From a virus, in IMG/VR virus record IMGVR_UViG_3300042890_002798, positions 1-58,038 of that record: a stretch of DNA of 58,038 nt. One strand, 5' to 3'. Shown here piece after piece: positions 29,202 to 43,025 of this stretch. Within the stretch, counting starts at the first letter, position 1. Every line of letters begins with the position of its first letter. Both the position numbers and the translations under genes were made by a program. Under the pieces are notes generated by a model. That model had not been told where the DNA came from. It searched no databases and saw only the letters and a program-made list of their open reading frames with translations.

Positions 29202-29829
29202 TCTGTTTCTCCGCAAGTTTGTTCATTAGTTTTTCAACCATCTGCTCTACTTCGGACAGGAACTTCCTTACCATTTCCTCAGACGTGGCGATGAAGCAAT
29301 CATCCCTGTCTACACGTTTGATAAACAGTTTCAGACCTTCTGGAGATCGTGGATCATAACTGACGAAATCGCACCATTTGCGACCTGTGCAGGCCATTTG
29401 CCACTGCATCTGGGTGAAGTATTTTTCCGGCACATCGTCGTTTAGTATGTATCCCAGGTGGGTGTGTGTCTCCGGGCACTTAATTTCGATGAGGCCATGA
29501 TCTCCAACGAGGCCGTCAGGGCTAGCCCCAGCGTCATTGATAGAAGGATGAGGAACAAAACCTGTTTCAGACACCTCATCAAAGCATATCGACCTGTATT
29601 CATTTCTTGCCTCTGGCTCCGTCTTTGTTCCCCAGTCCATTGATGAGCTGGTCGGGAATGTGTAGGGCTGTTTGGTGATGCGCTCGATGGCAAGCTGGGA
29701 CATGTAGGCGTCGCGGCTTTTGGACCATCCTGTCTTTGTTCTTGCCATAAGATCTGCGAGTCTTGATGCAGTCACTTTCCCGACGCGCTCAGATTTCCAT
29801 TCATCGGTTCCCTGATTTGGCGTGTTCAT
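29194..29829 (-). CDS. YqaJ / lambda-exonuclease-like recombinase nuclease
   Basis: The product is 211 aa from the start at 29829 (GGAGG 7 bases upstream). Motifs: an N-terminal EWKSERVGKVTASR, then INDAGASPDGLVG (Asp about 105) and GLIEIKCPE (Glu about 115, Lys about 117), the metal-binding PD-(D/E)xK core of YqaJ exonucleases, then QWQMACTGRKWCDFV. It acts 5' to 3' on duplex ends by family analogy and partners with ERF next to it. Confidence 0.93.
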   Translation of the reverse strand: MNTPNQGTDEWKSERVGKVTASRLADLMARTKTGWSKSRDAYMSQLAIERITKQPYTFPTSSSMDWGTKTEPEARNEYRSICFDEVSETGFVPHPSINDAGASPDGLVGDHGLIEIKCPETHTHLGYILNDDVPEKYFTQMQWQMACTGRKWCDFVSYDPRSPEGLKLFIKRVDRDDCFIATSEEMVRKFLSEVEQMVEKLMNKLAEKQNA

Positions 29830-30038
29830 TCGGATTCCTCCCATGCTTTGTTGAAAGCCTTTACCGCAGCTTCCAGCTTTTTCTGATGCTGGATATTTAC
29901 AAAAACCCTGTTGTTTTCTGGCTTGAAGCCTTCATTCATGTCATAGATGTCCATGGCGATCGTGCCTCTTTGACCGTAATGAACATCAAGTTTTATCTGA
30001 TCTTCTGAAAACCACGTGACGTAAGTTGCTATTCTCAT
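29826..30038 (-). CDS. Hypothetical first gene of minus early operon
   Basis: The product is 70 aa, beta-strand then helix (RIATYVTWFSEDQIKLDV, then a C-terminal KKLEAAVKAFNKAWEE). It is the promoter-proximal gene of the recombination operon and overlaps the exonuclease start by 4 bases. No family is recognised. Confidence 0.68.
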   Translation of the reverse strand: MRIATYVTWFSEDQIKLDVHYGQRGTIAMDIYDMNEGFKPENNRVFVNIQHQKKLEAAVKAFNKAWEESE

Positions 30039-30073
30039 TTTGTTTCTCCGTTGTTTATTAATTACTTATGGAT

Positions 30074-30102
30074 TACCTATACGAAACCTGCTAGCATGTC
30101 AA
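30074..30102 (-). promoter_or_regulatory. Candidate early promoter, minus strand
   Basis: On the minus strand TTGACA (30097-30102) is followed by 17 bases and TAGGTA, or by 15 bases and TATAGG (30076-30081). It lies 36 bases or more upstream of the start at 30038 and back to back with a plus-strand TTGACA. The -35 is perfect while the -10 is weak, so an activator may be needed. Confidence 0.55.
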
Positions 30103-30140
30103 CTGTAAACAGTGCTAGGAAAAAATATATTTGCATGTCC

Positions 30141-30170
30141 TTGACAGGCGTTTTGGTCTGTGTCGATGAT
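30141..30170 (+). promoter_or_regulatory. Candidate early promoter, plus strand
   Basis: TTGACA (30141-30146), an 18-base spacer and GATGAT (30165-30170) lie upstream of the AGGAG and start at 30190. Together with the minus-strand promoter it forms a divergent early control region of about 120 bp. Confidence 0.5.
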
Positions 30171-30417: not shown

Positions 30418-30757
30418 AAACAGCATTCAGAGATCAATAGTCGCATATTTGCGCACTGTGGTCCGCGACTGTGTGGTTATGGCGATCCCGAATGCGGCGC
30501 GTCGGACGATCAACGGAAAGCCCATGAATGCGGCTCCGGGTTTGCTTCCGGGCGCTCCCGATCTGGTCATAGCCTTTCCCGGTGGCAAGGTTTTGTGGTT
30601 GGAAGTCAAGGCTCCTAAAGGCGTCGTCAGTGATAATCAGGTTCTTGTCCATGAGCGTCTGGGCGAGATCGGGCATACGGTATACATCGTCCGCTCGATA
30701 GATGACGTTAAGGAAGTTATACAAAAATTAAACATAACAACGAGAGAGAAACAATGA
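30401..30757 (+). CDS. VRR-NUC domain nuclease
   Basis: The product is 118 aa. IPNAARR, then GLLPGAPDLVIAFPGGKVLW, then LEVKAPKGVVSDNQ is the VRR-NUC form of the PD-(D/E)xK fold, with Asp of GAPDL and Glu/Lys of LEVK as the metal site. It may resolve branched DNA during recombination or replication. It overlaps the following GcrA-like gene by 4 bases. Confidence 0.9.
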   Translation: MRAQIENSIQRSIVAYLRTVVRDCVVMAIPNAARRTINGKPMNAAPGLLPGAPDLVIAFPGGKVLWLEVKAPKGVVSDNQVLVHERLGEIGHTVYIVRSIDDVKEVIQKLNITTREKQ

Positions 30758-31422
30758 CCAAGAAAGCTGTATGGAACAAAGACAACGAGGAATTCTTGTC
30801 AAAGTTGCTAAACGCAGGTGCGACTGCGGCGCAGGCATCCGATGAGATTAATAACAAATTCGACATGTATTTTTCTCGCAATGCAATAATCAGCAAGGCA
30901 AGAAGATTAAAGCTGGAATTTGTCGTCAGGGTTGGAAGGAGTTATATTCCCGGATCTATAAAATATAATCAAACATATAAGATTAAAAAGGCAGATAATG
31001 TTGAGTTTATGAAAGCGTGGAAAGCAAATATCAAGATTCACGAATTGGAATCAATGTTCGGGATCAAGCGTAAATCTATACTTGAAAAGGCAAAAAAGCT
31101 AAAACTTGATAAAAGAGAAATAGATGAAAAGAGGTCGATTAGAGATATCAATTATTCAAAAGATATAAAATTCAAAAAGCTTCCGTCATTCATACGGGAA
31201 AGACAATCCTTTCCCAATCCAAAGGCTCTTGGTCTGAAGCTTTTGGAGCTTCGCAATAACCAATGCAGATACATCCTCGGCAGCGAGAGGCCATCGGATT
31301 TTCTGTATTGCGCTGCGCCAGTGGAGCCTGACTCTCCGGTCCCGTATTGCCCAACCTGTCGGGCGATTGTGTACGTAAAACCGTCAGGGCCGTCGCATAA
31401 GATTTTCAAGCTATACAGATGA
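30754..31422 (+). CDS. gcrA: GcrA-like cell-cycle transcription regulator
   Basis: The product is 222 aa. Residues 5-55 match the GcrA N-terminal HTH (WNKDNEEFLSKLLNAGATAA, then SRNAIISKARRL, where host GcrA has TRNAVIGKVHRL). Residues 82-120 look like a second HTH (ELESMFGIKRKSILEKAKKL). Residues 160-210 match the GcrA C-terminus that contacts sigma-70 (LLELRNNQCRYILGSERPSD, then FLYCAAP, then PYCPTCRAIVY); the last His of the usual CxxH is Cys. Host GcrA activates promoters carrying GANTC methylated by CcrM. The next promoter downstream contains a GANTC site, so autogenous or downstream control is plausible. Confidence 0.87.
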   Translation: MTKKAVWNKDNEEFLSKLLNAGATAAQASDEINNKFDMYFSRNAIISKARRLKLEFVVRVGRSYIPGSIKYNQTYKIKKADNVEFMKAWKANIKIHELESMFGIKRKSILEKAKKLKLDKREIDEKRSIRDINYSKDIKFKKLPSFIRERQSFPNPKALGLKLLELRNNQCRYILGSERPSDFLYCAAPVEPDSPVPYCPTCRAIVYVKPSGPSHKIFKLYR

Positions 31423-31427
31423 GAAAA

Positions 31428-31462
31428 CGCCCGGTCTGTCTGAGGCGTTGACAGTCCGGGCG
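31428..31462 (+). promoter_or_regulatory. 12-bp interrupted palindrome upstream of promoter
   Basis: CGCCCGG (31428-31434) and CTGTC (31436-31440) pair with GACAG (31450-31454) and CCGGGCG (31456-31462), with one T-T mismatch and a 9-base loop. It starts 6 bases after the GcrA-like stop and abuts the -35 box at 31463. There is no T-tract, so it is either an operator-like site or an RNA hairpin protecting the upstream message. Confidence 0.7.
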
Positions 31463-31491
31463 TTGACAGGCCGAGTCATTCGGCTTAGGAT
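31463..31491 (+). promoter_or_regulatory. Candidate promoter with GANTC in spacer
   Basis: Perfect TTGACA (31463-31468), a 17-base spacer and TAGGAT (31486-31491). The spacer holds a small palindrome GCCGA...TCGGC (31470-31484) with GAGTC, a GANTC site, at 31473-31477. In Caulobacter, GcrA-dependent promoters often have methylated GANTC between or near the -10 and -35. It would drive the 31564 gene, the structured RNA and the dCTP deaminase-helicase genes. Confidence 0.62.
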
Positions 31492-31563
31492 ATATTTCGG
31501 CTTCGTAAGAAGACAGCAACTTCTTATGAAACCTGAACATGAACAGTTGACCAGAGAACCGTT

Positions 31564-31869
31564 ATGTCTGTTGAGAAGAATAGGCCGTCTTCGGCGGAAA
31601 ATCAATCCGCTAAATCCTATACACAGGATTATTCGAAGGCCGTTGACTATCATTTTTCCAAAGAAGCCAAGGTAGAACAGGCAGAACTGTCTGTTCTCAA
31701 TAGCTTACGCAATGCTGTGAGCTTTGCCCAGCTTGCTGAAGATCACCGTTCTTTATTTGATCCTGTCGGATTTGAGCATTGCGCTGAGCAATTTCTCGCC
31801 AATGCCCGCAAGGCATCCGAAGCACTTCGGACTCTTAAATCTCTGAAAAAGGAGGCATCCAAGGGCTAG
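31564..31869 (+). CDS. Hypothetical early protein
   Basis: The product is 101 aa, mainly helical, Ser/Ala/Lys-rich (VDYHFSKEAKVEQAELSVLN, then FLANARKASEALRTLKS). It follows the GANTC-containing promoter. Its stop codon sits in the loop of a hairpin AAGGGC/GCCCTT (31861-31880). No family is recognised. Confidence 0.65.
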   Translation: MSVEKNRPSSAENQSAKSYTQDYSKAVDYHFSKEAKVEQAELSVLNSLRNAVSFAQLAEDHRSLFDPVGFEHCAEQFLANARKASEALRTLKSLKKEASKG

Positions 31870-31894
31870 GCAGCGCCCTTCCATGCGTCCTTAA

Positions 31895-32120
31895 CCATCC
31901 GCCGGCAAAGGCGAGAGACCCGGCATATGCCGATCGAGTCAGGACAACAGTTGCCTTTGGGAAATAGTAAAATGGGGCCTGTCCCGGGCCAGTGGGAAAT
32001 CTTGCGGAAAGATCCACCATACCTGACGAATGCATACGATACACAAGTCCTCATGGTGAGGCCGGAGCCGGCAAGCAGATGCCGATAGTAGGGAGAACCT
32101 ACATCTGAGTCAGGGAATAC
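31895..32120 (+). ncRNA. Candidate structured non-coding RNA
   Basis: The stretch 31870-32265 has no convincing gene. On the plus strand it contains nested pairings: CAAAGGC/GCCTTTG (31906-31912 with 31953-31959) enclosing CGGCATATGCCG; GTGG+ATCTT with AAGAT+CCAC (31992-32017, 3-base bulge); CCTCA/TGAGG (32049-32061); GCCG/CGGC (32061-32072); and CAGAT+GTAGG with CCTAC+ATCTG (32076-32107, 7-base bulge). Several hairpins sit back to back with little spacing. No tRNA, tmRNA, RNase P or group I intron signature was recognised. It may be a leader, a regulatory RNA or a packaged RNA. Confidence 0.45.
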
Positions 32121-32265
32121 CAGAACCGCTGCCAAACCCGTCCGTATAGACCCAATGGCCAAGGTCCAGGTCGCCGGGTCGCCCACTCCAGACTCAATTG
32201 TCCGGATTAGTGGTATCGGAGCATACGGGAGAGGGAGCTATGCCCAAATTCAGGAGAATGTTTAC

Positions 32266-32754
32266 ATGGAAGATGATTACCTGCCTGACAATGTGAGGCC
32301 AGAGAAGCACGCCTATCGAGATGAGGATATCAGTAGACGCCACAGAATGTGGGGGTTTAACTGTCCAGCCGCCGACCTTGATTTTGTGATGGTGGAATAC
32401 AACATCGGCAAGCCTGTCGCGCTTGTTGAGTATAAATATTACCTGCACAAGATCACGGATTTTAACCATCCCACATACAGGGCGATTCGCTGTCTGGCGG
32501 ACGAATACAAAAGTGGACCGTTGCCATTTATCGTATCGCTTTATTCACGTGACGACTGGTCGTTTAGGGTATACTGTGTGAATGAAGCTGCTGAGAAGCA
32601 TTTCTGTTCTGGCGAGCATTTGTCTGAACTGGAATATGTCCAGCGTCTTTACCGAATGCGCCGTCAGGCACTGGCCAAACATCTGGAAAATCAACTCAAC
32701 ACAACGATCAAGGAAAAATCAAATGGCGCAATTGTCAGCCCAATCTATCCGTAA
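32266..32754 (+). CDS. Putative PD-(D/E)xK-like protein
   Basis: The product is 162 aa. The ATG at 32266 has AGGAG nine bases upstream; an in-frame extension to 32155 would enter the structured region and lacks a ribosome site. MWGFNCPAADLDFVMVEYN, then PVALVEYKYY gives the order D-x(n)-E-x-K that marks PD-(D/E)xK nucleases, followed by a helix and FIVSLYSRDDWSFRVYCV strands. A nuclease or restriction-like fold is inferred from these few residues only. It overlaps the dCTP deaminase start by 32 bases. Confidence 0.68.
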   Translation: MEDDYLPDNVRPEKHAYRDEDISRRHRMWGFNCPAADLDFVMVEYNIGKPVALVEYKYYLHKITDFNHPTYRAIRCLADEYKSGPLPFIVSLYSRDDWSFRVYCVNEAAEKHFCSGEHLSELEYVQRLYRMRRQALAKHLENQLNTTIKEKSNGAIVSPIYP

Positions 32755-33190
32755 GCTATGCGAGGGCGAGCGTCCTATGGTGTATCCGTTTGTTGCGGAA
32801 AAGAAGGTGGTCAACGGAACGAGCTATGGGTTATCCGCAGCTTCATATGACGTAAGGATCGGGCATGATCTTGTGTTGCATCCAAAGCAATCATCCCTGG
32901 CTCATACGTTTGAAGATTTCTGTATGCCGGATAATGTTGTCGCATATGTAGTAGATAAATCGACTTATGCGAGAAGATTTATATCAGCATTGAATACATT
33001 AATAGATCCTGGGTTTGTTGGTAATCTGACGCTTGAATTGGTTAATCTTGGCAATCACGTGGTCCATATTAATTCTGGCGACCCGATATGCCAGATTGCT
33101 TTTCACTGGCTGGATGAGCCAACTGAAATTCCATACAAGGGTAAATACCAACATCAAACAAAAGAAGCTCATGGGGCGCGTTATGAATGA
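32723..33190 (+). CDS. dcd: dCTP deaminase
   Basis: The product is 155 aa. Start at 32723 has AAGGA upstream; the longer frame from 32582 would add unrelated residues. GLSAASYDVRIG, then VVDKSTYARRF (Ser about 80, Arg about 84), then TLIDPGFVGNLTLELVNLGN (catalytic Glu about 105) are the family motifs. It converts dCTP to dUTP on the way to dTTP; whether it is bifunctional like DCD-DUT enzymes is unclear. It adjusts nucleotide pools for phage DNA synthesis. Confidence 0.93.
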   Translation: MAQLSAQSIRKLCEGERPMVYPFVAEKKVVNGTSYGLSAASYDVRIGHDLVLHPKQSSLAHTFEDFCMPDNVVAYVVDKSTYARRFISALNTLIDPGFVGNLTLELVNLGNHVVHINSGDPICQIAFHWLDEPTEIPYKGKYQHQTKEAHGARYE

Positions 33191-33449
33191 TCCTGTTAAT
33201 AATCCAAAGCATTATAATTCACATCCATCCGGGATCGAATGCATTCAAATAACCGAGCATATGAATTTTTGTTTGGGAAATGCGGTGAAGTATATCTGGA
33301 GAGCGGGATTAAAGGGAGGCGCTATAGAAGATCTGGAAAAATCAGTCTGGTATTTGCAAAGGGAAATACAAAGAAGAAAAACATATAATTGGAGAGAATC
33401 CTGTGAAACAGCTAAGGCCCTATCAAGAGAACGCAATTCAAGAGCTTAG
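33183..33449 (+). CDS. DUF3310 protein
   Basis: The product is 88 aa. NNPKHYNSHPSGIECIQITE, then NAVKYIWRAGLKGG, then IEDLEKSVWYLQREI is the DUF3310 pattern found in many phages, often next to nucleotide metabolism genes. The ATG at 33183 lies 8 bases inside the dCTP deaminase end. Its last 47 bases overlap the helicase start. Biochemical role is unsettled. Confidence 0.9.
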   Translation: MNDPVNNPKHYNSHPSGIECIQITEHMNFCLGNAVKYIWRAGLKGGAIEDLEKSVWYLQREIQRRKTYNWRESCETAKALSRERNSRA

Positions 33450-34893
33450 ATCGGCTTTAGCTTTAAAGCTAAAACCAGTCCTGTCAGCTCCAACGGGATC
33501 AGGTAAAACGAGAATCGCCTCAGAGATATTCGCTCTTGCTCGCGTAAAAAATAAGCGTGTGTGTTTCTGTGTTCCGTTTTTGTCCCTTATCCGCCAAACC
33601 TATCGGGCATTTGTTGAGGCTGGGATAGATGAGCGGGAGATCGGGATAATTCAGGCTAATAATGAACTCACAGACTGGTCGCGTCCGGTTCAGATCGCCT
33701 CGATTGATACGCTATCCCGCCGGCCAAAATTCCCGGATGTCGATGTTGTGATCTTTGATGAAGTCCATAACAATTCTGTCGTTTACAAACGATGGATGGA
33801 GGCATCTCCCAACACCTATTTTATCGGATTGTCTGCGACTCCATGGGCCAGTGGCATGAGCAAGCTCTGGGACAAAATGATCGTTGTCTCGACAGTCGCT
33901 GAGCTTATTAAAGATGGATACCTGTCTCCATTCAAATATTACGCGCCGTCTGTTCCTGACCTGCGAGACGTCAAGATAGTTGCTGGTGATTATCAAAAGG
34001 ACCAGCTTGCACTGGCCATGAGCAAGGCTGATCTCATAGCTGACATCGTGACTACGTGGATAAAGAAAGGCGAGAACAGGCCGACCTTTTGCTTTGCCGT
34101 GAACCGCCGCCATGCTCAGGAGATCCAGCACCAGTTCCTGAATGCCGGAATCCCGGCTGGTTACGTGGATGCCTATACGCCCGTCGAGGAGCGTGAGGCC
34201 ATGATTAATCAGCTACGGGACGGAGAATTAAAGGTCATCTGTAATATCGGAACGATGACGACTGGCGTTGATGCGCCTTTTGTGTCCTGCATCATTCTAG
34301 CGCGCCCGACAAAGAGTGAGATGCTTTTTGTGCAAATTATCGGTCGCGGCTTGAGGACTAATCCAGATAAACAGGATTGTATTATTCTGGATCATTCCTC
34401 GACTGCCCTTAATCTCGGCAGGCCAGATGAGATATTTTACGATCATTTTCGTGGTGGTCAGTCTCCTGTTGGTGGGACGAAAGCAGACAAGAAGGAAAAA
34501 GAAGATCCAAAGCCGAGAGCCTGCCCGAGTTGCGGATTCCTGCTTTTGCCTAAAGAAAAGGATTGTCCATCTTGTGGATATGTATTCCCTCCGCCCAGCA
34601 GTGATGTATATGTAGCAGATGGCGAGCTTGCGGAATTGGGTTCTGGTGGTAAGCTACGCAAGGTCAAATTTGACGAGAAGCAATCTTTCTGGTCTGGATT
34701 GCTTTATCTTGCTGAAGAGCGTGGTCGGGCGCGTTCATGGGCGTTGGCCAATTATAAGAACAAGTTTGGGGTTTGGCCGAGAAATCTCAAGGATAAACCT
34801 GAGTATCCCACAAAATCGGTAAAAGACTTTGTAAAAAGTCGAAGTATCGCGTGGGCAAAAAGAATGGAAAAAGAAAGAATATTAACGGGATGA
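33403..34893 (+). CDS. SF2 DEAD/DEAH-type helicase with zinc ribbon
   Basis: The product is 496 aa. Q-like start LRPYQENAIQELR, Walker A APTGSGKT (29-36), DEVH (about 118-121), motif III SATPW (about 145), and QIIGRGLRT (about 311-319) as motif VI place it in superfamily 2. Residues about 373-397 add a CPSCG...CPSCG zinc ribbon. It is the only helicase found and could load or remodel replication or recombination forks. It is linked by ATGA to the next gene. Confidence 0.92.
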   Translation: MKQLRPYQENAIQELRSALALKLKPVLSAPTGSGKTRIASEIFALARVKNKRVCFCVPFLSLIRQTYRAFVEAGIDEREIGIIQANNELTDWSRPVQIASIDTLSRRPKFPDVDVVIFDEVHNNSVVYKRWMEASPNTYFIGLSATPWASGMSKLWDKMIVVSTVAELIKDGYLSPFKYYAPSVPDLRDVKIVAGDYQKDQLALAMSKADLIADIVTTWIKKGENRPTFCFAVNRRHAQEIQHQFLNAGIPAGYVDAYTPVEEREAMINQLRDGELKVICNIGTMTTGVDAPFVSCIILARPTKSEMLFVQIIGRGLRTNPDKQDCIILDHSSTALNLGRPDEIFYDHFRGGQSPVGGTKADKKEKEDPKPRACPSCGFLLLPKEKDCPSCGYVFPPPSSDVYVADGELAELGSGGKLRKVKFDEKQSFWSGLLYLAEERGRARSWALANYKNKFGVWPRNLKDKPEYPTKSVKDFVKSRSIAWAKRMEKERILTG

Positions 34894-35075
34894 GTTACTT
34901 CAAGAAGCCAGTGGTCGTTGAAAAACGCAAGCTTGGACCGAACAGATGGAAGAAGTCTGCGCCAGATCAGCCTGAAAAGCCGGTTTACAGCGATATAGAA
35001 AAACAGCTACACAAGCATAGCAAGCGGAACTCGACCTATTTCCCGCCATCCTGGTGGCTACCCGGAGAAAAGTGA
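34890..35075 (+). CDS. Small basic protein
   Basis: The product is 61 aa, beginning MSYFKKPVVVEKRKLG and strongly basic, with a YFPPSWWLPGEK end. It overlaps the helicase stop as ATGA and ends just before the next start. A helicase accessory or nucleic-acid-binding peptide is possible. No family is recognised. Confidence 0.65.
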   Translation: MSYFKKPVVVEKRKLGPNRWKKSAPDQPEKPVYSDIEKQLHKHSKRNSTYFPPSWWLPGEK

Positions 35076-35612
35076 ATGGCACGCCCTGGCCGTAAGCGGA
35101 AAATCGAAGCGCCGCGTTTTCCAAACGGCCAGGTAAAGCCGGCGGAACAAGAGCCGTCTCCAACTCTGGTTAAGCGCCTGGCTGCCTATTCTCTGGTCGG
35201 AATGCAGGATGCGCAATGGGGTACTGTTCCGGGTATATTCTATCTCAGCAGGAAGATAGACGAGACTGAATATGAGACGGCCAAGCGGTTCTCAAGTCTC
35301 TACAGCCAGTATATTGCGGTTATAAACGGCCCACGTAGGCCAAAAACATCTACCGGAGAGCAGAGAGGCCAATCGGCTCAGATTGATGTGGATACGTTTC
35401 TGGGCCAGCAAGAGGCATCCAGGCATACCGATGTCATGGACAGGTATAATGACGCCTACACAGCCCTGCAAAATCTTGGGGCTGGTGTGGCTACAGAGGT
35501 CATTAATTTCTGCGCTGATTCGGGTCAGACGCCATGCGGATGGGAAGGGATGATAAAATTAAGAAAGGGTTTATCTGTTCTGGCTGTGCTTTGGAATGTA
35601 AAAAGCAGGTAG
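35076..35612 (+). CDS. Hypothetical early protein
   Basis: The product is 178 aa. It has a basic N-terminus (MARPGRKRKIEAPRFPNG), then a helical body (RLAAYSLVGMQDAQWG, then DETEYETAKRFSSLYSQY). It is directly abutted to the gene before. The arrangement resembles early phage proteins of unknown function. Confidence 0.66.
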   Translation: MARPGRKRKIEAPRFPNGQVKPAEQEPSPTLVKRLAAYSLVGMQDAQWGTVPGIFYLSRKIDETEYETAKRFSSLYSQYIAVINGPRRPKTSTGEQRGQSAQIDVDTFLGQQEASRHTDVMDRYNDAYTALQNLGAGVATEVINFCADSGQTPCGWEGMIKLRKGLSVLAVLWNVKSR

Positions 35613-35692
35613 GATTTGACAAGATTGATGGATTGTATAATATGTTTATTGGCATTGTTTCGTCAGATGCTGTTTCTCCAACTTGTCCGTGA
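35540..35692 (+). CDS. Possible small Cys-rich protein overlapping preceding gene
   Basis: A 50-aa frame starting MGRDDKIKKGFICSGCAL with a CxxC...C cluster overlaps the last 73 bases of the 35076 gene and continues 80 bases past it, ending just before the terminator at 35715. There is no good Shine-Dalgarno. It would fill the otherwise empty gap, but it could be chance. Confidence 0.35.
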   Translation: MGRDDKIKKGFICSGCALECKKQVGFDKIDGLYNMFIGIVSSDAVSPTCP

Positions 35693-35714
35693 TTTCTTCC
35701 TCCCTGCATGGACG

Positions 35715-35751
35715 CCCGCCCAGTCACAATAGTCTGGGCGGGATTTTTTTT
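35715..35751 (+). terminator. Strong intrinsic terminator of plus early operon
   Basis: CCCGCCCAG (35715-35723) and CTGGGCGGG (35734-35742) form a 9-bp stem with a 10-base loop, followed by A and eight T. It separates the plus early operon from the facing minus-strand gene, whose stop is at 35750-35752. Confidence 0.92.
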
Positions 35752-36019
35752 AGGCTTTGATGGCCTTGTATCTAACCGCAGAGAACATGGTCGTCTTGGC
35801 GAGCTGCTGGTAAACAGACGGATCAAGCACCTTTTCGGCTTCCTTGGCGGAAATGCTGGTGCGCTCCTGAAGGCCGACTGTTACACGGAAGCGATCTCCT
35901 TCGATAACGTCAACTCCCGTGGCCAGGATCATGGACTTGACTGCGTCCAGTTCATCCTGAAGGGCATCCATCTCGATTTTAAGAGCGGCATAGCGGTCAG
36001 CGAGTTCATTCTGGCTCAT
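35750..36019 (-). CDS. Hypothetical protein with coiled-coil N-terminus
   Basis: The product is 89 aa. Residues 1-35 form a coiled coil (ADRYAALKIEMDALQDELDA) and the rest is a small beta/helix unit (GDRFRVTVGLQERTSISAKE). The organisation resembles Gp157-like small phage proteins. It has its own promoter candidate upstream. Function is unknown. Confidence 0.7.
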   Translation of the reverse strand: MSQNELADRYAALKIEMDALQDELDAVKSMILATGVDVIEGDRFRVTVGLQERTSISAKEAEKVLDPSVYQQLAKTTMFSAVRYKAIKA

Positions 36020-36055
36020 TTGGTCCCTCGTTGGTTTGTGTTGTTGACGAAGATG

Positions 36056-36083
36056 AGATTACCACATCCCGCAATCCTGTCAA
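36056..36083 (-). promoter_or_regulatory. Candidate promoter for the 35750 gene
   Basis: On the minus strand TTGACA (36078-36083), a 16-base spacer and TAATCT (36056-36061) with an upstream TG (extended -10, TGGTAATCT). It lies 37 bases from the gene start at 36019 and just after the upstream gene's stop. Confidence 0.55.
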
Positions 36084-36104
36084 GCCCATATCAAAATATT
36101 TTTG

Positions 36105-36407
36105 TTACAGGCTTCTTTCAACCATATCGACGATGCGATATTGATGCGGATCCTTGTGCAGGGCTTTTTCGATCAGGCGATAGATTTCTGAATTGTTGTC
36201 CAGCCTGAGTCCGGCCTTTCCTTTTTCATCGGCATGAAGTATAATGCTTTCAACGTCGTAGCATATCCCGCCGCGATATCCTGTGTCTGGATCTCCGGGA
36301 TCTGTTTCGAATGCGATCTCTGCTTCGCCCCAGACGCATGAGTCATGGTCCGGGACGACCTGAAGTTCTTCGAAGTCGTAGGTCAAATATCCAGTTCGGT
36401 ATTTCAT
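36105..36407 (-). CDS. Hypothetical acidic protein
   Basis: The product is 100 aa, acidic, beta-rich (YLTYDFEELQVVPDHDSC, then EIAFETDPGDPDTGYRGG). It overlaps the upstream gene by 4 bases. No family is recognised. Confidence 0.66.
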   Translation of the reverse strand: MKYRTGYLTYDFEELQVVPDHDSCVWGEAEIAFETDPGDPDTGYRGGICYDVESIILHADEKGKAGLRLDNNSEIYRLIEKALHKDPHQYRIVDMVERSL

Positions 36408-36727
36408 TTTGGGAGCCTTTCGAATCCGATGGCGACGTTTCTTGAGATGACATGGGCCATGGGGATTTCGCCCTTGGGGGTTATCCTTACGCCCAGATCG
36501 AAATTGACTCTGCCGGCGATTTCAATCCGGGAGGTGTAGATTTTGCGGGCCAGATTGTAAGCTCCCAGCACGGCGGCTTCCAATGGCAGTTTCTGGGGTG
36601 GAATGGCGATGGGCTTAGGCGATTTCTCGTCTGCCCACGCCTGTTTAAGGCACTCGCCAAATGGCTGTCCTGTCTCACGTCGTAGCCTATGGGCTACAAG
36701 CATGACTCTTCGTTTATCGTAGCGCAT
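36404..36727 (-). CDS. Hypothetical basic protein
   Basis: The product is 107 aa and basic. The N-terminal stretch RRVMLVAHRLRRETGQPFGE followed by CLKQAWADEK resembles short helical modules in phage proteins that bind nucleic acid, but no family is certain. It is coupled to the next gene by ATGA. Confidence 0.62.
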   Translation of the reverse strand: MRYDKRRVMLVAHRLRRETGQPFGECLKQAWADEKSPKPIAIPPQKLPLEAAVLGAYNLARKIYTSRIEIAGRVNFDLGVRITPKGEIPMAHVISRNVAIGFERLPK

Positions 36728-36805
36728 GTTGGGTTCCTCATTTCCATGGTTGGTCTCATCAGCAGCCGCCTTACGGCTGGACAGGGCCGGAGCCCTGTTT
36801 CGACC

Positions 36806-36988
36806 TTAGTTCAGGAAATCAGATGGGAATTTAGCTTCGATTTCGTATCCCATATCTTTGATCTGCTTCAGAGCATCTTTTGTCAGTGTCTTGGTCCCAA
36901 GGAGCTTGGCAAATTTATTAGCCATATCGCAGTGGGGATAAGCTTTGTCTTCGCCAAAAACGTTTTTGATCAGGACGGTGATTTTCAT
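36806..36988 (-). CDS. Small hypothetical protein
   Basis: The product is 60 aa (MKITVLIKNVFGEDKAYPHC, then a helical LTKDALKQIKDMGYEIEAKF). It is the promoter-proximal gene of the minus-strand quartet, 34 bases from the TTGACA...TATTTA promoter. The 78 bases to the following gene contain only a GC-rich hairpin-prone stretch. Confidence 0.65.
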   Translation of the reverse strand: MKITVLIKNVFGEDKAYPHCDMANKFAKLLGTKTLTKDALKQIKDMGYEIEAKFPSDFLN

Positions 36989-37021
36989 TTTGTCTCTCCA
37001 AGGTTTGTGTTTATGTCCCTA

Positions 37022-37050
37022 TAAATACCGTTCTAAATAAAATCTGTCAA
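37022..37050 (-). promoter_or_regulatory. Early promoter, minus strand
   Basis: On the minus strand: TTGACA (37045-37050), a 17-base spacer and TATTTA (37022-37027), 34 bases upstream of the start at 36988. Sequence and spacing fit a sigma-70 promoter well. It faces away from a plus-strand promoter 11 bases further on. Confidence 0.72.
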
Positions 37051-37060
37051 GCCCTTTTTG

Positions 37061-37088
37061 TTGCAAAGTGCGAAAAATCTGGTATAGT
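37061..37088 (+). promoter_or_regulatory. Candidate promoter of the packaging region
   Basis: TTGCAA (37061-37066), a 16-base spacer and TATAGT (37083-37088). The same TTGCAA-16-TATA layout precedes the portal gene at 44865, so this may be a late-type class. Confidence 0.52.
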
Positions 37089-37179
37089 TTAAAACTCCTT
37101 GAGAGGCCAAGGACTTGCGCAGGTCCGAACGCGGAATGCCGACAGCAAGGGTAGCGTCTTGCCCTGGAGAAGATGGCGG

Positions 37180-37404
37180 ATGGCGATTAACTGGGCCAAA
37201 TATGGTTTGCTGGCGAAACCCGGTCCTGAAGGCGGTCCCTATGTAATAGAACCCGGATCCTGGGAGCTGATCGACGAATTCCTCGCTGAGCTAAAAGCCC
37301 ATGACGAAGCCCGCAAATCCGGTCGTGTCGTCATCGCAGTAGACTTCAAGACAAAGAAGATAAAAGACCATAAGGACAACCCGGACAGTTTCTTCAATTT
37401 CTAG
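37180..37404 (+). CDS. Small hypothetical protein
   Basis: The product is 74 aa. The ATG at 37180 follows GGAGAAG; a longer frame from 37099 would begin too close to the promoter. Composition is mixed, with a C-terminal charged helix. It is the first gene of the plus-strand late arm. No family is recognised. Confidence 0.6.
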   Translation: MAINWAKYGLLAKPGPEGGPYVIEPGSWELIDEFLAELKAHDEARKSGRVVIAVDFKTKKIKDHKDNPDSFFNF

Positions 37405-37418
37405 AGAAAGATCCACCT

Positions 37419-37595
37419 ATGCCCACACAAACCAACGAAACCCGTATGGTCGAACTATTCGAGCGCTTAGTAATAAAGGTAGAGAGAATTTCAGAACACC
37501 TTGAGCTATATTCAGGCATTCTCAAAGACACCCTCGAAGAAGAGGGAAAATGCAATAAAGAGATAAAGACAAAGATCGAGCAGGGAATTGTTTGA
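37419..37595 (+). CDS. Small coiled-coil protein
   Basis: The product is 58 aa, nearly one long amphipathic helix (MVELFERLVIKVERISEHLE and onward, then EEEGKCNKEIKTKIEQ). It lies between the 37180 gene and the ParB-methyltransferase. Function is unknown. Confidence 0.6.
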   Translation: MPTQTNETRMVELFERLVIKVERISEHLELYSGILKDTLEEEGKCNKEIKTKIEQGIV

Positions 37596-37651
37596 TAAAT
37601 CAAATATATACAAGATAGAGTTAAAGTGCCCAAAAAAGGAATTTCCCGATC

Positions 37652-39016
37652 ATGAAAAAGATTTGGCCTGCTGATAAGGTAGAAAGAAGAGAAGTCAATA
37701 AGTTAGTGCCTTATGCGAGGAACGCCAGAACGCATTCTCCTGAGCAGATTGACCAGATCGCGGCGAGCATTCGGGAGTGGGGCTGGACAACGCCTGTTCT
37801 GATTGACGAGGAAGGCGGTTTGATCGCTGGCCATGGTCGTGTCATGGCTGCCAAGAAGCTCGGGATCGGCGAGATTCCCGTGATGGTCGCGTCTGGCTGG
37901 TCTGATGCCCAGAAAAAGGCTTACGTTCTGGCTGACAATAAACTGGCGCTAAACGCCGGCTGGGACACGGAAATGCTCAAGATCGAATTGTCCGATCTCT
38001 CTGAGATGGACTTTAACCTGGACTTGACCGGGTTTGGCCCTGATGAACTGGCAATCCTGCTGGCGGAGAAAACGGAAGGTTTAACGGATCCCGATGAAAC
38101 GCCCGAACCGCCTGCTGAACCGGTTAGCGTTCTTGGCGATGTTTGGATTCTTGGGAATCATAGGTTGGTATGTGGAGATGCCACCAATGTTAATGACTGG
38201 AATACTTTAAAAGTAAGCCATGGATTCATTCTTTTTACTTCTCCACCTTACAATCTTGGTAGTGGGGCAAAATTAAGCGGCAATAAGTCCATAAGCAAGA
38301 ATGGCAACGCTTACGGTGATTACACAGATAATGTGTCATCTAACGAATATTTTTGCCTATTAGATTCAATACTTTCTACTTCTATGACATTTGTTGATCT
38401 ATCTGTTATAAATGTCCAGCCGTTGGCTAATTCAAAAAGGCCAATAATTGAGTGGATGGGCAAATGGGCGACAAATCTTATTGACATAGTCACTTGGGAT
38501 AAGGGCCATGCAGCACCACCGATGGCTAAAGGTGTGATGTCGAGTCGTTATGAATGGATATTTTTATTCTCAAATAAGGAAAACGCATCTAGATCAATAC
38601 CATATTCTTCCTGGCAGGGAAAATTCAGCAACGTATATAACGCGCCGCCGCAGCGGAATAATGAATTTGCCAGCGTTCATGGCGCTACATTTCCTGTGCA
38701 TTTGCCAGAATACATAGTTGGGGATCTTGTAAACAGATGCAGAGGCGTGGTCGATTGTTTTATGGGAACGGGAACAACGATGATTGCTGCTGAGAAATTA
38801 GGTCGAGAATGCCGAGGTATTGAAATCAGTCCGGCCTATGTAGACATCTGTGTGGAAAGATGGCAGAATTTCACGGGAAAAGAAGCTCATCTGGAATCTA
38901 ATGGAGAGTCTTTTAATAATTTGAAGGCGAAAAAAAATCATGTCCAACGATCAGAAAGTAAAGAAACCGGGAATGCCTCCCTTCAAGCCGACGGAAGAAA
39001 ACCGGAAGATGGTTGA
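37652..39016 (+). CDS. ParB-N domain fused to DNA methyltransferase
   Basis: The product is 454 aa. Residues 10-110 are a ParB/Srx-type domain (LVPYARNARTHSPEQIDQIA, then LIAGHGRVMAAKKLG). Residues 150-425 are a beta-class amino-methyltransferase: motif IV TSPPYNL (about 195-201) precedes motif I DCFMGTGTT (about 366-374). SPPY is more typical of N4-cytosine enzymes than DPPY of adenine enzymes, but this is not decisive. The ParB part is GC-rich and the methylase centre AT-rich, which suggests a mosaic origin. The C-terminal 76 bases overlap TerS. Confidence 0.88.
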   Translation: MKKIWPADKVERREVNKLVPYARNARTHSPEQIDQIAASIREWGWTTPVLIDEEGGLIAGHGRVMAAKKLGIGEIPVMVASGWSDAQKKAYVLADNKLALNAGWDTEMLKIELSDLSEMDFNLDLTGFGPDELAILLAEKTEGLTDPDETPEPPAEPVSVLGDVWILGNHRLVCGDATNVNDWNTLKVSHGFILFTSPPYNLGSGAKLSGNKSISKNGNAYGDYTDNVSSNEYFCLLDSILSTSMTFVDLSVINVQPLANSKRPIIEWMGKWATNLIDIVTWDKGHAAPPMAKGVMSSRYEWIFLFSNKENASRSIPYSSWQGKFSNVYNAPPQRNNEFASVHGATFPVHLPEYIVGDLVNRCRGVVDCFMGTGTTMIAAEKLGRECRGIEISPAYVDICVERWQNFTGKEAHLESNGESFNNLKAKKNHVQRSESKETGNASLQADGRKPEDG

Positions 39017-39353
39017 GGCCATGTCCAGCTTCGGAATGCCTCAGGCTCAGATATGCACGGTTCTGGATATAGATCCTAAAACCTTGAGGAAATATTTCCG
39101 CGAGGAATTGGACAAGGCTATGATCAAGGCCAATGCCAAGGTCGCGGCTAATCTATTCCGCCAGGCCACCAAGGATGACTTTAAGGCTACGACGGCTGCT
39201 ATATTCTGGTCAAAGACCCGGATGGGCTGGAAAGAGCCTGTTCACATGGAGCATTCCGGTTCATTAAGCGTGAATTTCAAAGGCATGTCAGACGATGAGC
39301 TTGACGACTTTATCGCGGAGCAAACGGGAAACCTTAGCGGAAGCTTTGATTGA
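38940..39353 (+). CDS. terS: Terminase small subunit-like protein
   Basis: The product is 137 aa. An HTH-like segment (MVEAMSSFGMPQAQICTVLD, then IDPKTLRKYF) is followed by a helical oligomerisation region and FWSKTRMGWKEP. It overlaps TerL by about 59 bases. It would recognise the packaging start and stimulate TerL. The size and position support the call. Confidence 0.85.
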   Translation: MSNDQKVKKPGMPPFKPTEENRKMVEAMSSFGMPQAQICTVLDIDPKTLRKYFREELDKAMIKANAKVAANLFRQATKDDFKATTAAIFWSKTRMGWKEPVHMEHSGSLSVNFKGMSDDELDDFIAEQTGNLSGSFD

Positions 39354-40992
39354 AAAATCGCGCCGCCAATGCGAAGCCTCGTTTGTTCACTTTGTCAAGA
39401 AAGCATGGCCCAATATTGAGCCCGGAAACAATTTGATATGGGGATGGCATATGAATGCCATTTGCGAACATCTTGAGGCCGTTTATTATGGAGAAATCAA
39501 TCGTTTACTTATAAATGTTCCTCCTGGGTTTTCTAAATCGCTTTTGACATCTGTGTTCTTTCCGAGTTGGTGTTGGGCGAAGGATCCGCATCTGCGGTTT
39601 TTGTGCGCATCCCATACGCAAAGTCTGGCTATTCGCGATTCGACAAAAATGCGTCGGCTTGTCCAAAGCGATTGGTATCAGGCTCGATGGGGCGACAAGA
39701 TCATTCTTACCGGCGACCAGAACGCCAAGACCAAATTCGAGAATAAAGCGACAGGCTTTAGAGAGGCTGTGGCTGCTGGCTCGATCACTGGCTCCAGAGG
39801 CGACATCGTTATCATTGACGATCCGCATTCTGTCGAGGGCGCTGCGTCTGAGGCCATGCGCAATTCTACGATTGAATGGTTTCTTGAGGCCGTTCCGACT
39901 CGCTTGAACAATCCCGAAACGTCGTCGATTGTTGTCATTATGCAGCGCCTCAATGAGGGCGATGTATCTGGCGTAATCATTGATAAGCAGCTTGGGTATG
40001 AGCATCTCTGCCTGCCGATGGAATTCGAAGAAGACCGGCGATGCGAGACCAGCATAGGCTTTGTAGATCCGCGTGAGGAAGAGGGCGAGCTACTATTCCC
40101 GGATCGATTCCCGCGTGAGGTTGTCGAACGGGACAAAAGGGTTATGGGGCCGTTCGCCACTGCCGGCCAGTTCCAGCAGCGCCCATCTCCCAGAGGAGGC
40201 GGCATTATCCAGCGATCCTGGTGGCAGCTTTACGACGACAACGAAGCCGCAGCTCAGGGACTGAACAGCGGCATGACCTATCCGGATATGGATTACATCG
40301 TCGCCTCGCTGGACACTGCCTATACCGAGAAGCAGGAGAACGACGCCAGCTATCTGACGATCTGGGGAATCTGGCAGCGCGGCGGCTCAGCGGCAAAATC
40401 CATTCTCTCCGTCAAGGGCGAGCGCATCGACCTGATTGACGACAGGGATACGATCCCATGCGCCATGCTGATGCACGCAAAGGAGATGCGCTTGCAGGTT
40501 CATGGCTCGAATGTATTGCGGGAGCCCGGAGAGACTGAGGCCGCTTTCAGAATCAGGCAGAGGGCTGCATGGGGTCTGGTCGAGTGGGTCACGCATATGT
40601 GCAACCAGTTCAAGGTTGACCTGCTGCTGATCGAGGCGAAGGCCAACGGCATGACTGTCGCGGATGAGATCAAGAGATTGAACCGGACGACGAACTGGTC
40701 GGTTCAGTTGATCAATCCCGGCAGCGCGGACAAGGTCGCCAGAGCCTATGCCGCTCAGGCTACATTCTCGAATGGCCAGGTCTGGGCTCCGGATCGGGAC
40801 TGGGCTGATAAGGTCATCACCCAGTGCGAGATGTTCCCGAAGGGCAGGCATGACGACGCTGTGGACTCCACCACACAGGCGCTGAATTATCTCAGGAAGC
40901 GCGGCTTTCTGCATCGTCAGGAAGATATCCTTGCTGACATTGGCGAGAGAGCGACCTACAAAAAGCCGGTCAAACCTATTTACGACACCTAG
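39295..40992 (+). CDS. terL: Terminase large subunit
   Basis: The product is 565 aa. ATPase part: Walker A-like INVPPGFSKS (about 73-82), Walker B IVIIDDP (about 171-177), and a coupling segment VIMQRLNEGDVSG. Nuclease part: SLDTAYTEKQENDASY (first Asp about 340), LLLIEAKANG (Glu about 448), and HDDAVDSTTQ (Asp about 522), as in RNase H-fold terminases. The start at 39295 is tentative; an in-frame TTG at 39346 is an alternative. It packages DNA into the procapsid, probably by headful cutting. Confidence 0.95.
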   Translation: MSLTTLSRSKRETLAEALIEKSRRQCEASFVHFVKKAWPNIEPGNNLIWGWHMNAICEHLEAVYYGEINRLLINVPPGFSKSLLTSVFFPSWCWAKDPHLRFLCASHTQSLAIRDSTKMRRLVQSDWYQARWGDKIILTGDQNAKTKFENKATGFREAVAAGSITGSRGDIVIIDDPHSVEGAASEAMRNSTIEWFLEAVPTRLNNPETSSIVVIMQRLNEGDVSGVIIDKQLGYEHLCLPMEFEEDRRCETSIGFVDPREEEGELLFPDRFPREVVERDKRVMGPFATAGQFQQRPSPRGGGIIQRSWWQLYDDNEAAAQGLNSGMTYPDMDYIVASLDTAYTEKQENDASYLTIWGIWQRGGSAAKSILSVKGERIDLIDDRDTIPCAMLMHAKEMRLQVHGSNVLREPGETEAAFRIRQRAAWGLVEWVTHMCNQFKVDLLLIEAKANGMTVADEIKRLNRTTNWSVQLINPGSADKVARAYAAQATFSNGQVWAPDRDWADKVITQCEMFPKGRHDDAVDSTTQALNYLRKRGFLHRQEDILADIGERATYKKPVKPIYDT

Positions 40993-41079
40993 CCTTCGTG
41001 GTATAGGAAATATAGTTGCCTGTAAGAACAACCCATCTCCCAAATGTCCACAATATTGTCAGAACAAAAAGGTGACGCC

Positions 41080-41172
41080 ATGCTCAAAGCCATTTTTGCG
41101 ATTATTGCGTTTATCGGCATTTACATAAGCCTTTGGTATTTGTTCCAAAGCACTGGTGGGGGCGTAGGATGA
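41080..41172 (+). CDS. Tiny membrane peptide
   Basis: The product is 30 aa: MLKAIFAIIAFIGIY then ISLWYLFQSTGG. AAGGTG precedes the ATG. An in-frame ATG at 41044 would lengthen it by 12 residues. It is linked by ATGA to the next small gene. A holin-like or regulatory peptide is possible. Confidence 0.5.
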   Translation: MLKAIFAIIAFIGIYISLWYLFQSTGGGVG

Positions 41173-41303
41173 TCGTCCATATTTTCACAGCCATCGGCGT
41201 CTACACCGTTGGAATGTGTCTGGTGCGGATCGTGCTGGCGCTTATGGGCGATCGGACGGGAAATAGCGGACGCTACAAAATGTGGGACGAGGAAGATGAC
41301 TGA
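41169..41303 (+). CDS. Small membrane protein
   Basis: The product is 44 aa, with an N-terminal membrane span (IVHIFTAIGVYTVGM, then CLVRIVLALM) and a charged C-terminus ending DEEDD. It is translationally coupled to the peptide before. Role is unknown. Confidence 0.55.
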   Translation: MIVHIFTAIGVYTVGMCLVRIVLALMGDRTGNSGRYKMWDEEDD

Positions 41304-41359
41304 ATACGCAAGTGCGTATATCTCAATTTAATACGCAAACCCGTATAGGGAGAGAAGGT

Positions 41360-41578
41360 ATGATCGACTACAGCAAACTCGCAAAAACCATGTGGGACGC
41401 TTATTGCGCTCATGCCGGTGGGAAGACGTTTGACGGGAAACCGCTGCCGACATGGGACGAGCTTGGCGATGAGCGTCAGGGCTGCTGGATCGCCGCCGCC
41501 GAAGCTGCTTTCGCTGAACTGACGAAACCGACAGATCGGGAAATATTTCGGCTTTATTCCAGCCCCACGCCGCGCTGA
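41360..41578 (+). CDS. Small hypothetical protein
   Basis: The product is 72 aa. The start at 41360 follows GGGAGAGAAGG. It has a helical N-terminus (MIDYSKLAKTMWDAYCAHAG) and a Trp-containing centre (CWIAAAEAAFAEL), a pattern common in small proteins of alphaproteobacterial phages. Function is unknown. Confidence 0.66.
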   Translation: MIDYSKLAKTMWDAYCAHAGGKTFDGKPLPTWDELGDERQGCWIAAAEAAFAELTKPTDREIFRLYSSPTPR

Positions 41579-41591
41579 AGGGAAAGAAGGG

Positions 41592-41825
41592 ATGACAAAC
41601 AAACCGGAAGAAGGTCCGCATGTGCCGGACACTGTGGCGCTTCTTGAAGCGCAGGCGAAGGAGATTGCGGAGAAGGATGCCCGCATCGCGGAATTGGAGG
41701 CGGCGCTGAAAGAATCTGACGAATCTTTGGGATGGCTAATATCGAAATATGTATGCGAGCTTGTTAATCATGACGACAGGGCACGCATACTCGCCGCGAT
41801 GAATGGAGAGAATTACAATGGATAA
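41592..41825 (+). CDS. Small coiled-coil protein
   Basis: The product is 77 aa, with a heptad-rich segment (LLEAQAKEIAEKDARIAELE) followed by a helical tail. It overlaps the GapR-like gene by 8 bases. Function is unknown. Confidence 0.66.
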   Translation: MTNKPEEGPHVPDTVALLEAQAKEIAEKDARIAELEAALKESDESLGWLISKYVCELVNHDDRARILAAMNGENYNG

Positions 41826-42063
41826 TAAAACACTTCAAAGCTACATCGACCGTATGGTTAAGCTAAAGATGGAACAGCGCCAGCTCGCCGAGTTCCTGTC
41901 AGATGTTAAATTGGAGGCCAAATCCAATGGCTTCGACGTTGGCGCTCTTGATGAAGTCGTGGCTCGCATTGTGGCCAAGGAAGAACTTCTGAAAAAGCGC
42001 AAGGAGCGAGAAGAGATCGCCAGGGTATATGCCGAGGCTATCGGCCAGATGAGTCTGTTTTGA
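41818..42063 (+). CDS. gapR: GapR-like (DUF2312) nucleoid protein
   Basis: The product is 81 aa. LQSYIDRMVKLKMEQRQLAE, then DVKLEAKSNGFDVGALDEVV matches the DUF2312 family, whose Caulobacter member GapR clamps overtwisted DNA ahead of replication forks and transcription. The start at 41818 has GGAGAG upstream. It lies immediately before a DnaA-type DNA-binding protein, consistent with a role in replication or nucleoid control. Confidence 0.88.
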   Translation: MDNKTLQSYIDRMVKLKMEQRQLAEFLSDVKLEAKSNGFDVGALDEVVARIVAKEELLKKRKEREEIARVYAEAIGQMSLF

Positions 42064-42089
42064 TATCATCAAGCGTAAGAGAGTAAGCC

Positions 42090-42608
42090 ATGAACATGTA
42101 CTATTACCGCTCAAATTCTCCGCTTGCCCTGAAGATCAACAAAATCCTTCGGGACAGGAGGATGGAATCCCAGGACAATAACCGGGAAAAAACAAAGATA
42201 TATTATATCACAAGCTCAAACTGGCGTGGCTTGAGAGGAAGAAATGAAGCGCCTCCTGAGTTAATGGACGCCCAGTTCCCATGGGCTCCGTTCAGATATC
42301 TGGACAGCATCATCCGTGAGGTAGAGTCGGAGTATGGCATCTCCTACGATGACATCAAGGGATCAAGGCGTTCTCCCAAAATGTCGTATGCCAGGCATGT
42401 TGTTTTCTATGTAGCCAAAGAAGCGACAAGCCTGAGCTATCCTGACATTGGCCGTCGCATGGGAGGCAAGGATCATACGACGATCTTGCATGGATACCAT
42501 CGGATTAAAAAGATCGTTGAGGCTGGCGGCGATGAAGCTGATAGAATTATAGCCTTAAAGGAAAAGGCAAAGAACCGTCGCGCTCACAGCGGATATTGGG
42601 GCTGCTAG
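42090..42608 (+). CDS. Free-standing DnaA domain IV protein
   Basis: The product is 172 aa. Residues 70-140 follow DnaA domain IV: VESEYGISYDDIKGSRRSPK, then YARHVVFYVAKEATSLSYPD, then IGRRMGGKDHTTILHGYHRI (DnaA signature GGxDHTTxLH). No AAA+ domain or domain I is present, so it cannot initiate on its own. It could occupy DnaA boxes to block host initiation, or recruit host factors to the phage genome. The GapR-like gene is directly upstream. Confidence 0.9.
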   Translation: MNMYYYRSNSPLALKINKILRDRRMESQDNNREKTKIYYITSSNWRGLRGRNEAPPELMDAQFPWAPFRYLDSIIREVESEYGISYDDIKGSRRSPKMSYARHVVFYVAKEATSLSYPDIGRRMGGKDHTTILHGYHRIKKIVEAGGDEADRIIALKEKAKNRRAHSGYWGC

Positions 42609-42614
42609 ACTGCC

Positions 42615-43025
42615 ATGACTCGTAAGATTGTCTTGACCGATGAGCAAATTGAAGCCCGGCTGGAGAAGAAAAGGCAGTATCAGAGAGAGTGGTCCAAAGC
42701 CAACCACGAAAGAAGATACGCCAGGCTAAAACAGCGCATGGCCGCTGATCCTGAATTTGAGTCGCAGGTGAAGAGTAGATGGGAGGCTAACCGAAAGAAG
42801 CGTCGGGCGAGTGGTGCTGACAAATACGAGTCTCCCGAATCCAAAGAGAAGCGCTTGAATCGTGAGCGTAGATATCGGGAGAAGAAAAAGCAGGAACGGA
42901 AGCTGGCTAATCCTGCTCCGCCAAAGCCAAAGGTGGAACAGAAGCCCAAAAAGTGCGTTACAAAGACAGAGGCGAAGAAAAAGCCCGGACGATTGCTGGC
43001 CCTCATGGGATGGGCCGGGTATTAG
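42615..43025 (+). CDS. Lys/Arg-rich protein
   Basis: The product is 136 aa, more than a third Lys or Arg, with repeats of ERRYxxxKxx and a C-terminal KKPGRLLALMGWAGY. It starts 6 bases after the DnaA-like gene. DNA or RNA binding is likely by charge. No named family is recognised. Confidence 0.68.
   Translation: MTRKIVLTDEQIEARLEKKRQYQREWSKANHERRYARLKQRMAADPEFESQVKSRWEANRKKRRASGADKYESPESKEKRLNRERRYREKKKQERKLANPAPPKPKVEQKPKKCVTKTEAKKKPGRLLALMGWAGY

Follow-up and report, generated by a model that had tools for sequence, protein, structure and literature searches.

The virus record IMGVR_UViG_3300042890_002798, whose 58,038 nucleotides were analyzed in full and are referred to here as the window, encodes three proteins that belong to families of the bacterial chromosome cycle: a GcrA-like regulator, a GapR-like protein, and a standalone domain IV of DnaA. 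On balance, we favor the view that these are host-derived domains from a gene pool circulating among alphaproteobacterial phages, two of them in altered form, and not a single circuit-hijacking module. The observed part of this picture consists of family membership, the conservation or loss of individual residues, and gene neighborhoods in other phages. The original prediction for this DNA had gone further, reading the three genes and a ParB-methyltransferase fusion as a four-gene module for taking over the host cell cycle. That the genes for GcrA, GapR, and DnaA domain IV are phage-borne and recurring has been borne out, but the place of the methylase, the organizing role given to GapR, the targets on phage DNA, and obligate co-occurrence have not.

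The GcrA-family protein (222 amino acids; 30754..31422, + strand) matches PF07750 at 45.0 bits (cut-off 26.9) over residues 7-202, in agreement with the earlier claim that it has both ends of GcrA. It is made up of an N-terminal DNA-binding domain (DBD) with a helix-turn-helix (HTH; residues ~7-54), a probable second HTH-like segment (~79-123), and a C-terminal sigma-interacting domain (SID; ~160-210). In an alignment of 35 phage GcrAs, comprising the window protein and 34 others, the DBD retains W7, R42, N43, A44, K48, and R51, and the SID retains C171, C186, and C199, with H202 replaced by Cys. A structure model built on the phage GcrA alignment, and hence with GcrA sequences as input, is confident for both domains (predicted local distance difference test, pLDDT, mostly >80). 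The modeled DBD resembles that of Caulobacter (5yiu) with a template modeling (TM) score of 0.83 at 1.3 Å, and the modeled SID resembles its Caulobacter counterpart (5yix) with a TM score of 0.78 at 1.5 Å, both scores being normalized by target length. These two entries are among the closest solved structures; the small size of each domain keeps the Foldseek E-values modest. No close relative of the protein was present in the phage collection, and IMG/VR yielded only the same phage.

The linker between DBD and SID of Caulobacter GcrA is unstructured, spanning residues 46-107 (PMC7403470). The corresponding region of the window protein holds a DBD-like insert that is absent from the 34 other phage GcrAs. 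This insert resembles the protein's own first HTH, with a self-repeat score of 50 compared with 24.5 ± 4.5 for shuffles, none of 1000 of which reached 50. A GcrA DBD profile alone gave it a weak score (19th among 1654 scored sequences, all others being shuffles), and the case for a second HTH is founded on likeness to the first. AlphaFold run without an alignment drew the insert as three helices (82-90, 95-102, and 106-115), and with an alignment as two longer ones (79-102 and 106-123). The insert is probably, but not provably, a second HTH, and an altered GcrA that acts on sigma-70 is plausible.

The second altered protein is the GapR-like (DUF2312) product of 41803..42063 (+ strand; 86 amino acids, or fewer if translated from the ATG at 41818). 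It matches PF10073 (GapR_DNA-bd) at 44.1 bits (cut-off 22.6), and GapR structures in the Protein Data Bank (PDB) match it with values down to 2.9e-8; it falls below the NCBIfam equivalog cut-off for GapR (34 versus 140 bits). The predicted family was correct; the start given as 41818 is the second in-frame ATG. Caulobacter GapR contacts DNA through K34, K42, K49, K56, K59, K60, R63, and K66 (PMC7498317). In the window protein the first six of these positions are occupied by Q, S, K, G, D, and E, and the last two by A/E or R/K, depending on the alignment, such that one of eight contacts is kept according to MAFFT and three of eight in a pairwise alignment with PDB GapR (five to seven lost). Seven other phage GapRs have 6-8 basic residues at these positions, and that of Rhizobium phage RHph_TM3_3_3 has four. 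The tetramer-interface residues Y82 and G87 are kept, and R65, D68, R69, and E88 differ. The fold of GapR is probably retained and, judged from these substitutions, its grip on DNA probably lost. The suggestion that the phage organizes its DNA with GapR is consequently doubtful, most of the DNA-contact lysines having been replaced. As a separate observation, an alphaproteobacterial genome (G087:C4:19068-19556, +) contains a 250-amino acid frame with two GapR domains, together with two further GapR copies elsewhere.

The third protein (172 amino acids; 42090..42608, + strand) matches Bac_DnaA_C (PF08299) at 82.1 bits (cut-off 31.5) over residues 72-139 only, and the AAA+ ATPase (domain III) found no match in it. 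Because Bac_DnaA_C alone was matched, it is a domain IV protein and not a DnaA, just as had been proposed from its DNA-binding domain lacking an ATPase. Over residues 71-148 the protein aligns to the DNA-binding domain of E. coli DnaA (1j1v) without any gap, 8btg was also matched, and the DHTT motif is present as GGKDHTT. R94, P118, D128, H129, and T131 are invariant across nine phage copies and align to R399, P423, D433, H434, and T436 of E. coli DnaA, on what we take to be the residue offset of 1j1v. In E. coli these five residues contact the DnaA box. Between relatives, the gene has accumulated 10 synonymous changes and two amino acid changes; the GapR-like gene, with three and two, respectively, is too short to tell. 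Directly after the domain IV gene comes a 136-amino acid lysine/arginine-rich protein without a family match (42615..43025, + strand). One cluster of alphaproteobacterial phages is known to have a DnaA-like protein (PMC10783043).

These alterations could also be read as sabotage, in which altered copies interfere with host regulators and stall the host cycle to the benefit of the phage: the GapR-like protein would form mixed tetramers without a grip on DNA, DnaA domain IV would compete for the DnaA boxes of oriC, and the GcrA-like protein would keep sigma-70 at other promoters. The loss of five to seven of eight GapR contacts alongside retention of Y82 and G87, the DNA-binding residues of a DnaA domain without its ATPase, and the additional HTH-like segment in GcrA would all be consistent with this, and there is precedent in prophage-encoded YfdR, which brakes DnaA initiation in E. 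coli (PMC4776307). However, the differences at R65, D68, R69, and E88 make joining host tetramers uncertain. We regard this explanation as unlikely, though worth keeping in mind. The fully specified combination, in which a two-HTH GcrA re-aims sigma-70, a neutral-channel GapR poisons host tetramers, and an ATPase-free DnaA domain competes for boxes, seems to us quite unlikely; if true, it would be a phage strategy that hits the topology, initiation, and transcription of one host cycle simultaneously.

The fourth gene of the proposed module, at 37652..39016 (+ strand), does encode, as predicted, a fusion of a ParB/Srx-type N-terminal domain with an N6/N4 DNA methylase, the latter bearing a TSPPY motif. 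It scores 82.3 bits against PF01555 (N6_N4_Mtase; cut-off 26.7) and matches phrog_498 (DNA methyltransferase, 1e-99) and phrog_620 (ParB-like, 2e-54) of PHROGs. Its scores against ParB_N (PF02195; 23.2 bits, cut-off 26.3) and the ParB/RepB/Spo0J family (TIGR00180; 26.9 versus 58.45 bits) lie below the cut-offs. CcrM was considered as an identity and rejected, with 29.1 bits against an NCBIfam equivalog cut-off of 830: CcrM (6pbd) belongs to the same broad methylase superfamily, but the TSPPY motif and the ParB-type domain set the window protein apart from it. Relatives occur in 608 phage records from many hosts. Two genomes that are ~98% identical to the window in the flanks (G005 and G006) lack the gene and carry in its place an open reading frame (ORF) that by eye looks GIY-YIG-like, together with a small terminase of another kind; the termini of the G006 contig correspond to window positions ~30322 and ~35870, a gap that takes in the GcrA gene. 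The exchange point lies beside the packaging genes (window 37600-39591 versus 1731-2887 of contig L050). In MW202748, an unrelated phage, the order is DnaA domain IV, replisome organizer, ParB-methylase, and the small (TerS) and large (TerL) terminase subunits, and the nearness of the methylase to DnaA domain IV therefore reflects a common phage gene order. Given its 608 relatives, its distance from CcrM, and its absence from G005 and G006, we judge the fusion to lie outside the cell-cycle set, as an independent and exchangeable generic phage gene.

The remaining three genes recur in other phages. Searching IMG/VR with a profile from a broad alignment gave at least 125 contigs with a GcrA relative, and this breadth was needed because the GcrA of Caulobacter phage DMCA as a single query gave no matches; an eight-sequence GcrA alignment was too diverse for searching. 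At family cut-offs, DnaA domain IV is found in eight of the 43 GcrA-bearing phage contigs of at least 30 kb, GapR in eight, and both in three, and the association of GapR with DnaA domain IV given GcrA is not significant across these 43 contigs (p = 0.15). In contig L225, genes for GcrA, DnaA domain IV, GapR, and a DUF1376-like organizer are consecutive, preceded by a divergent repressor and followed by a terminase small subunit-like ORF. In L054, a methylase-like ORF, DnaA domain IV, a GcrA-type HTH, and an organizer-like protein each overlap the next; L053 shares with it the overlapping or abutting DnaA domain IV and GcrA-type HTH and the organizer-like protein that follows. (Organizer, repressor, and terminase ORFs in these three contigs were named by eye.) A DnaA domain IV-like gene lies ~0.4 kb or less from GcrA in L227, L229, and L244/L245. 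The contigs L223-L245 in which GcrA is near DnaA domain IV, especially L225, L227, L229, and L244, may be interrelated. Of the four genes for which a survey of joint occurrence had been suggested, three recur together, often near replication genes, but not obligately, and the methylase is not one of them.

Among bacterial chromosomes, a second GcrA less than 5 kb from a second DnaA domain IV was clearly found in one of 114 alphaproteobacterial genomes (G049), and such co-location on chromosomes is rare. The search of bacterial genomes with the DnaA domain IV profile told little about prophages because, among the matches listed, nearly all loci checked were full-length host DnaA. It might be argued that the host-derived genes were simply acquired and kept as cargo without an important role, as the mosaicism at the locus, with methylase and TerS exchanged, and the fact that GcrA without GapR or DnaA domain IV is the commonest state among phages would allow. 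Against this stand their recurrence, chiefly in early regions, in different phages of alphaproteobacteria, the preponderance of synonymous changes in DnaA domain IV, and the conservation of structural residues in GcrA, and we consider cargo the least probable of the explanations weighed here.

Sites for these proteins on the phage's own DNA were also counted. GANTC occurs 16 times between genes versus 12.4 expected, with no clear enrichment, and 48 DnaA-box-like sites in the genome versus 43.9 expected are at chance level; a search of the genome for iterons revealed nothing clearly beyond chance. With DnaA boxes at chance, any target of DnaA domain IV is to be sought on the host or in a sequence unlike the standard box, and the idea that the phage's own GANTC promoters or DnaA boxes are redirected is not supported, GANTC being depleted. 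The depletion fits an alphaproteobacterial host without proving it. A contig with the same kind of terminase, L010 (IMGVR 3300021225_000417), has two GANTC sites in 21.6 kb where ~48 would be expected, and so avoids the CcrM site very strongly.

A single takeover module, in which DnaA domain IV blocks DnaA, GcrA works with a CcrM-like ParB-methylase to switch promoters that are methylated, and GapR organizes phage DNA, can draw on the presence of all four genes, on the intact DNA-contact residues of DnaA domain IV and the intact DBD and SID of GcrA, and on the contiguity of three of the four in L225. It is difficult to reconcile with a methylase that is not CcrM and is missing from close relatives, with the neutralized channel of the GapR-like protein, with genes scattered over 12 kb amid packaging genes, and with site statistics devoid of target enrichment and a co-occurrence that is not obligate. 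We consider it distinctly improbable, and both it and the sabotage explanation have less support than altered, host-derived parts.

How such parts would work can be outlined as follows, with the caveat that we infer the biochemical roles of all three proteins. They would serve the phage's own replication and transcription program, early functions of this kind being those to which such genes are usually tied in alphaproteobacterial phages. The C-terminal domain of the GcrA-like protein would bind region 2 of host sigma-70, and its standard DBD and probable second HTH would alter the set of promoters to which RNA polymerase is steered. DnaA domain IV, free of the ATPase, would occupy DnaA boxes, either those of the host origin or few or unusual sites of the phage, and so either flag a phage origin to the replication proteins of the host or compete with host DnaA. 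The GapR-like protein, with a GapR fold but no positive DNA channel, would more likely modify or join host GapR than coat phage DNA.

Several points weigh against this account of altered parts. The two predictions for the GcrA insert, helical in both cases, disagree in how they draw it. GcrA lies ~11 kb from GapR and DnaA domain IV and does not share an operon with them. The GANTC depletion is moderate (136 versus 190 expected, a ratio of 0.71) compared with ratios of 0.34-0.50 for those isolated phages of alphaproteobacteria that were tested, no DnaA-box cluster was found in the window genome, and the host is one that we infer. Finally, there is no recognizable replisome organizer in the window genome, and the replication role given to DnaA domain IV is for that reason borrowed from other phages.

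The window is a complete phage genome with a unit length of 57,911 bp, because its 127-bp ends are identical (1-127 and 57912-58038) and the sequence of a relative, G004, is continuous across the join. The phage most likely infects an alphaproteobacterium. TerL (39295..40992, + strand), the query used for finding relatives, has among its best matches in isolated phages those of Paracoccus, Aeromonas, and Roseobacter, and other terminase relatives are found in Rhizobium and also Shewanella phages; by sequence, the Paracoccus, Roseobacter, and Rhizobium relatives point to an alphaproteobacterial host, but the Aeromonas and Shewanella ones do not. TerS is encoded at 38940..39353 (+ strand; phrog_309, 5.5e-22). 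An intergenic region without a GANTC site (30039..30159) separates the rightward genes leading to GcrA from a leftward recombination operon with an ERF single-strand annealing protein (28581..29216, − strand; PF04404, 6e-20) and a YqaJ-type exonuclease (29194..29844, − strand; PF09588, 4e-25). As originally noted, no polymerase, primase, or DnaB-type helicase is present among the window ORFs scanned; a RadD-like DEAD/ResIII helicase (33403..34893, + strand) is the only replication-type helicase found, and further replication-type genes encode a VRR nuclease and a dCTP-deaminase/dUTPase-type protein. A small HTH protein (26593-27009, −) resembles sigma-70 region 4 and D5-like phage transcription regulators and is a possible phage transcription factor. 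A metallophosphatase/DNA repair exonuclease-type protein with an N-terminal Fis-type HTH (43436-44512, −) is encoded between DnaA domain IV and the portal gene, and a GroES-like co-chaperonin (PF00166, phrog_3188) at 52264-52680.

Phage GcrA (2012), phage GapR (2025), and phage DnaA-like genes had previously been noted singly. What is new here lies in the details, namely the probable second HTH of GcrA and the apparent loss of DNA contacts in the GapR-like protein, and in a recurring, loosely assembled gene pool whose members at times stand consecutively just before a replisome-organizer gene. This suggests that alphaproteobacterial phages routinely tap the host chromosome cycle, and the altered GcrA and GapR offer cheap and clear test cases for distinguishing phages that redirect the host cycle from those that sabotage it.

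Among known systems, gp222 of phiCbK is likewise a GcrA homologue that a phage encodes and that has both DBD and SID; its proposed effect is to bring the host into a state of replication (Gill et al. 2012, PMC3556154). It scores 88.5 bits against PF07750, compared with about 40-45 for the window protein, and is without the HTH-like insert; phiCbK also has its own T7-like polymerase, unlike the window phage. Erythrobacter phage R34L1 also has a GapR, which a 2025 report presents as the first from a phage (PMC12185513). This GapR shares with the window protein a phage location, but is described as highly similar to the GapRs of Erythrobacter strains, whereas the window protein is divergent and without most DNA contacts. 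The early region of Caulobacter phage DMCA (PQ480021) encodes GapR, GcrA, and an adenine methyltransferase in a single rightward run that faces leftward YqaJ/NinB genes. The DMCA GapR is near-identical to the host protein and keeps all eight contacts, in contrast to the losses in the window, and the phage has a replicative helicase and no DnaA domain IV in the stretch searched. In the gene table published for a set of phiLM21-like prophages of Sinorhizobium, a regulator of the GcrA type, DnaA, and a protein of the UPF0335 (GapR) family all appear (PMC12429752), the trio being named in these prophages as cargo only, without mechanism or joint analysis. Bradyrhizobium phages ppBjS10J-1 and ppBeUSDA76-2 have a leftward ERF/YqaJ operon opposite rightward genes for DnaA domain IV and DUF2312, and Rhizobium phages RHph_TM3_3_3 and RHph_N28_2 have DnaA domain IV with a GapR-type (DUF2312) protein. 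None of these four encodes GcrA, and a DUF1376-type gene is nearby in RHph_TM3_3_3, RHph_N28_2, and ppBeUSDA76-2; like the window phage, all carry a standalone DnaA domain IV and a GapR-type protein as a pair in the early region.

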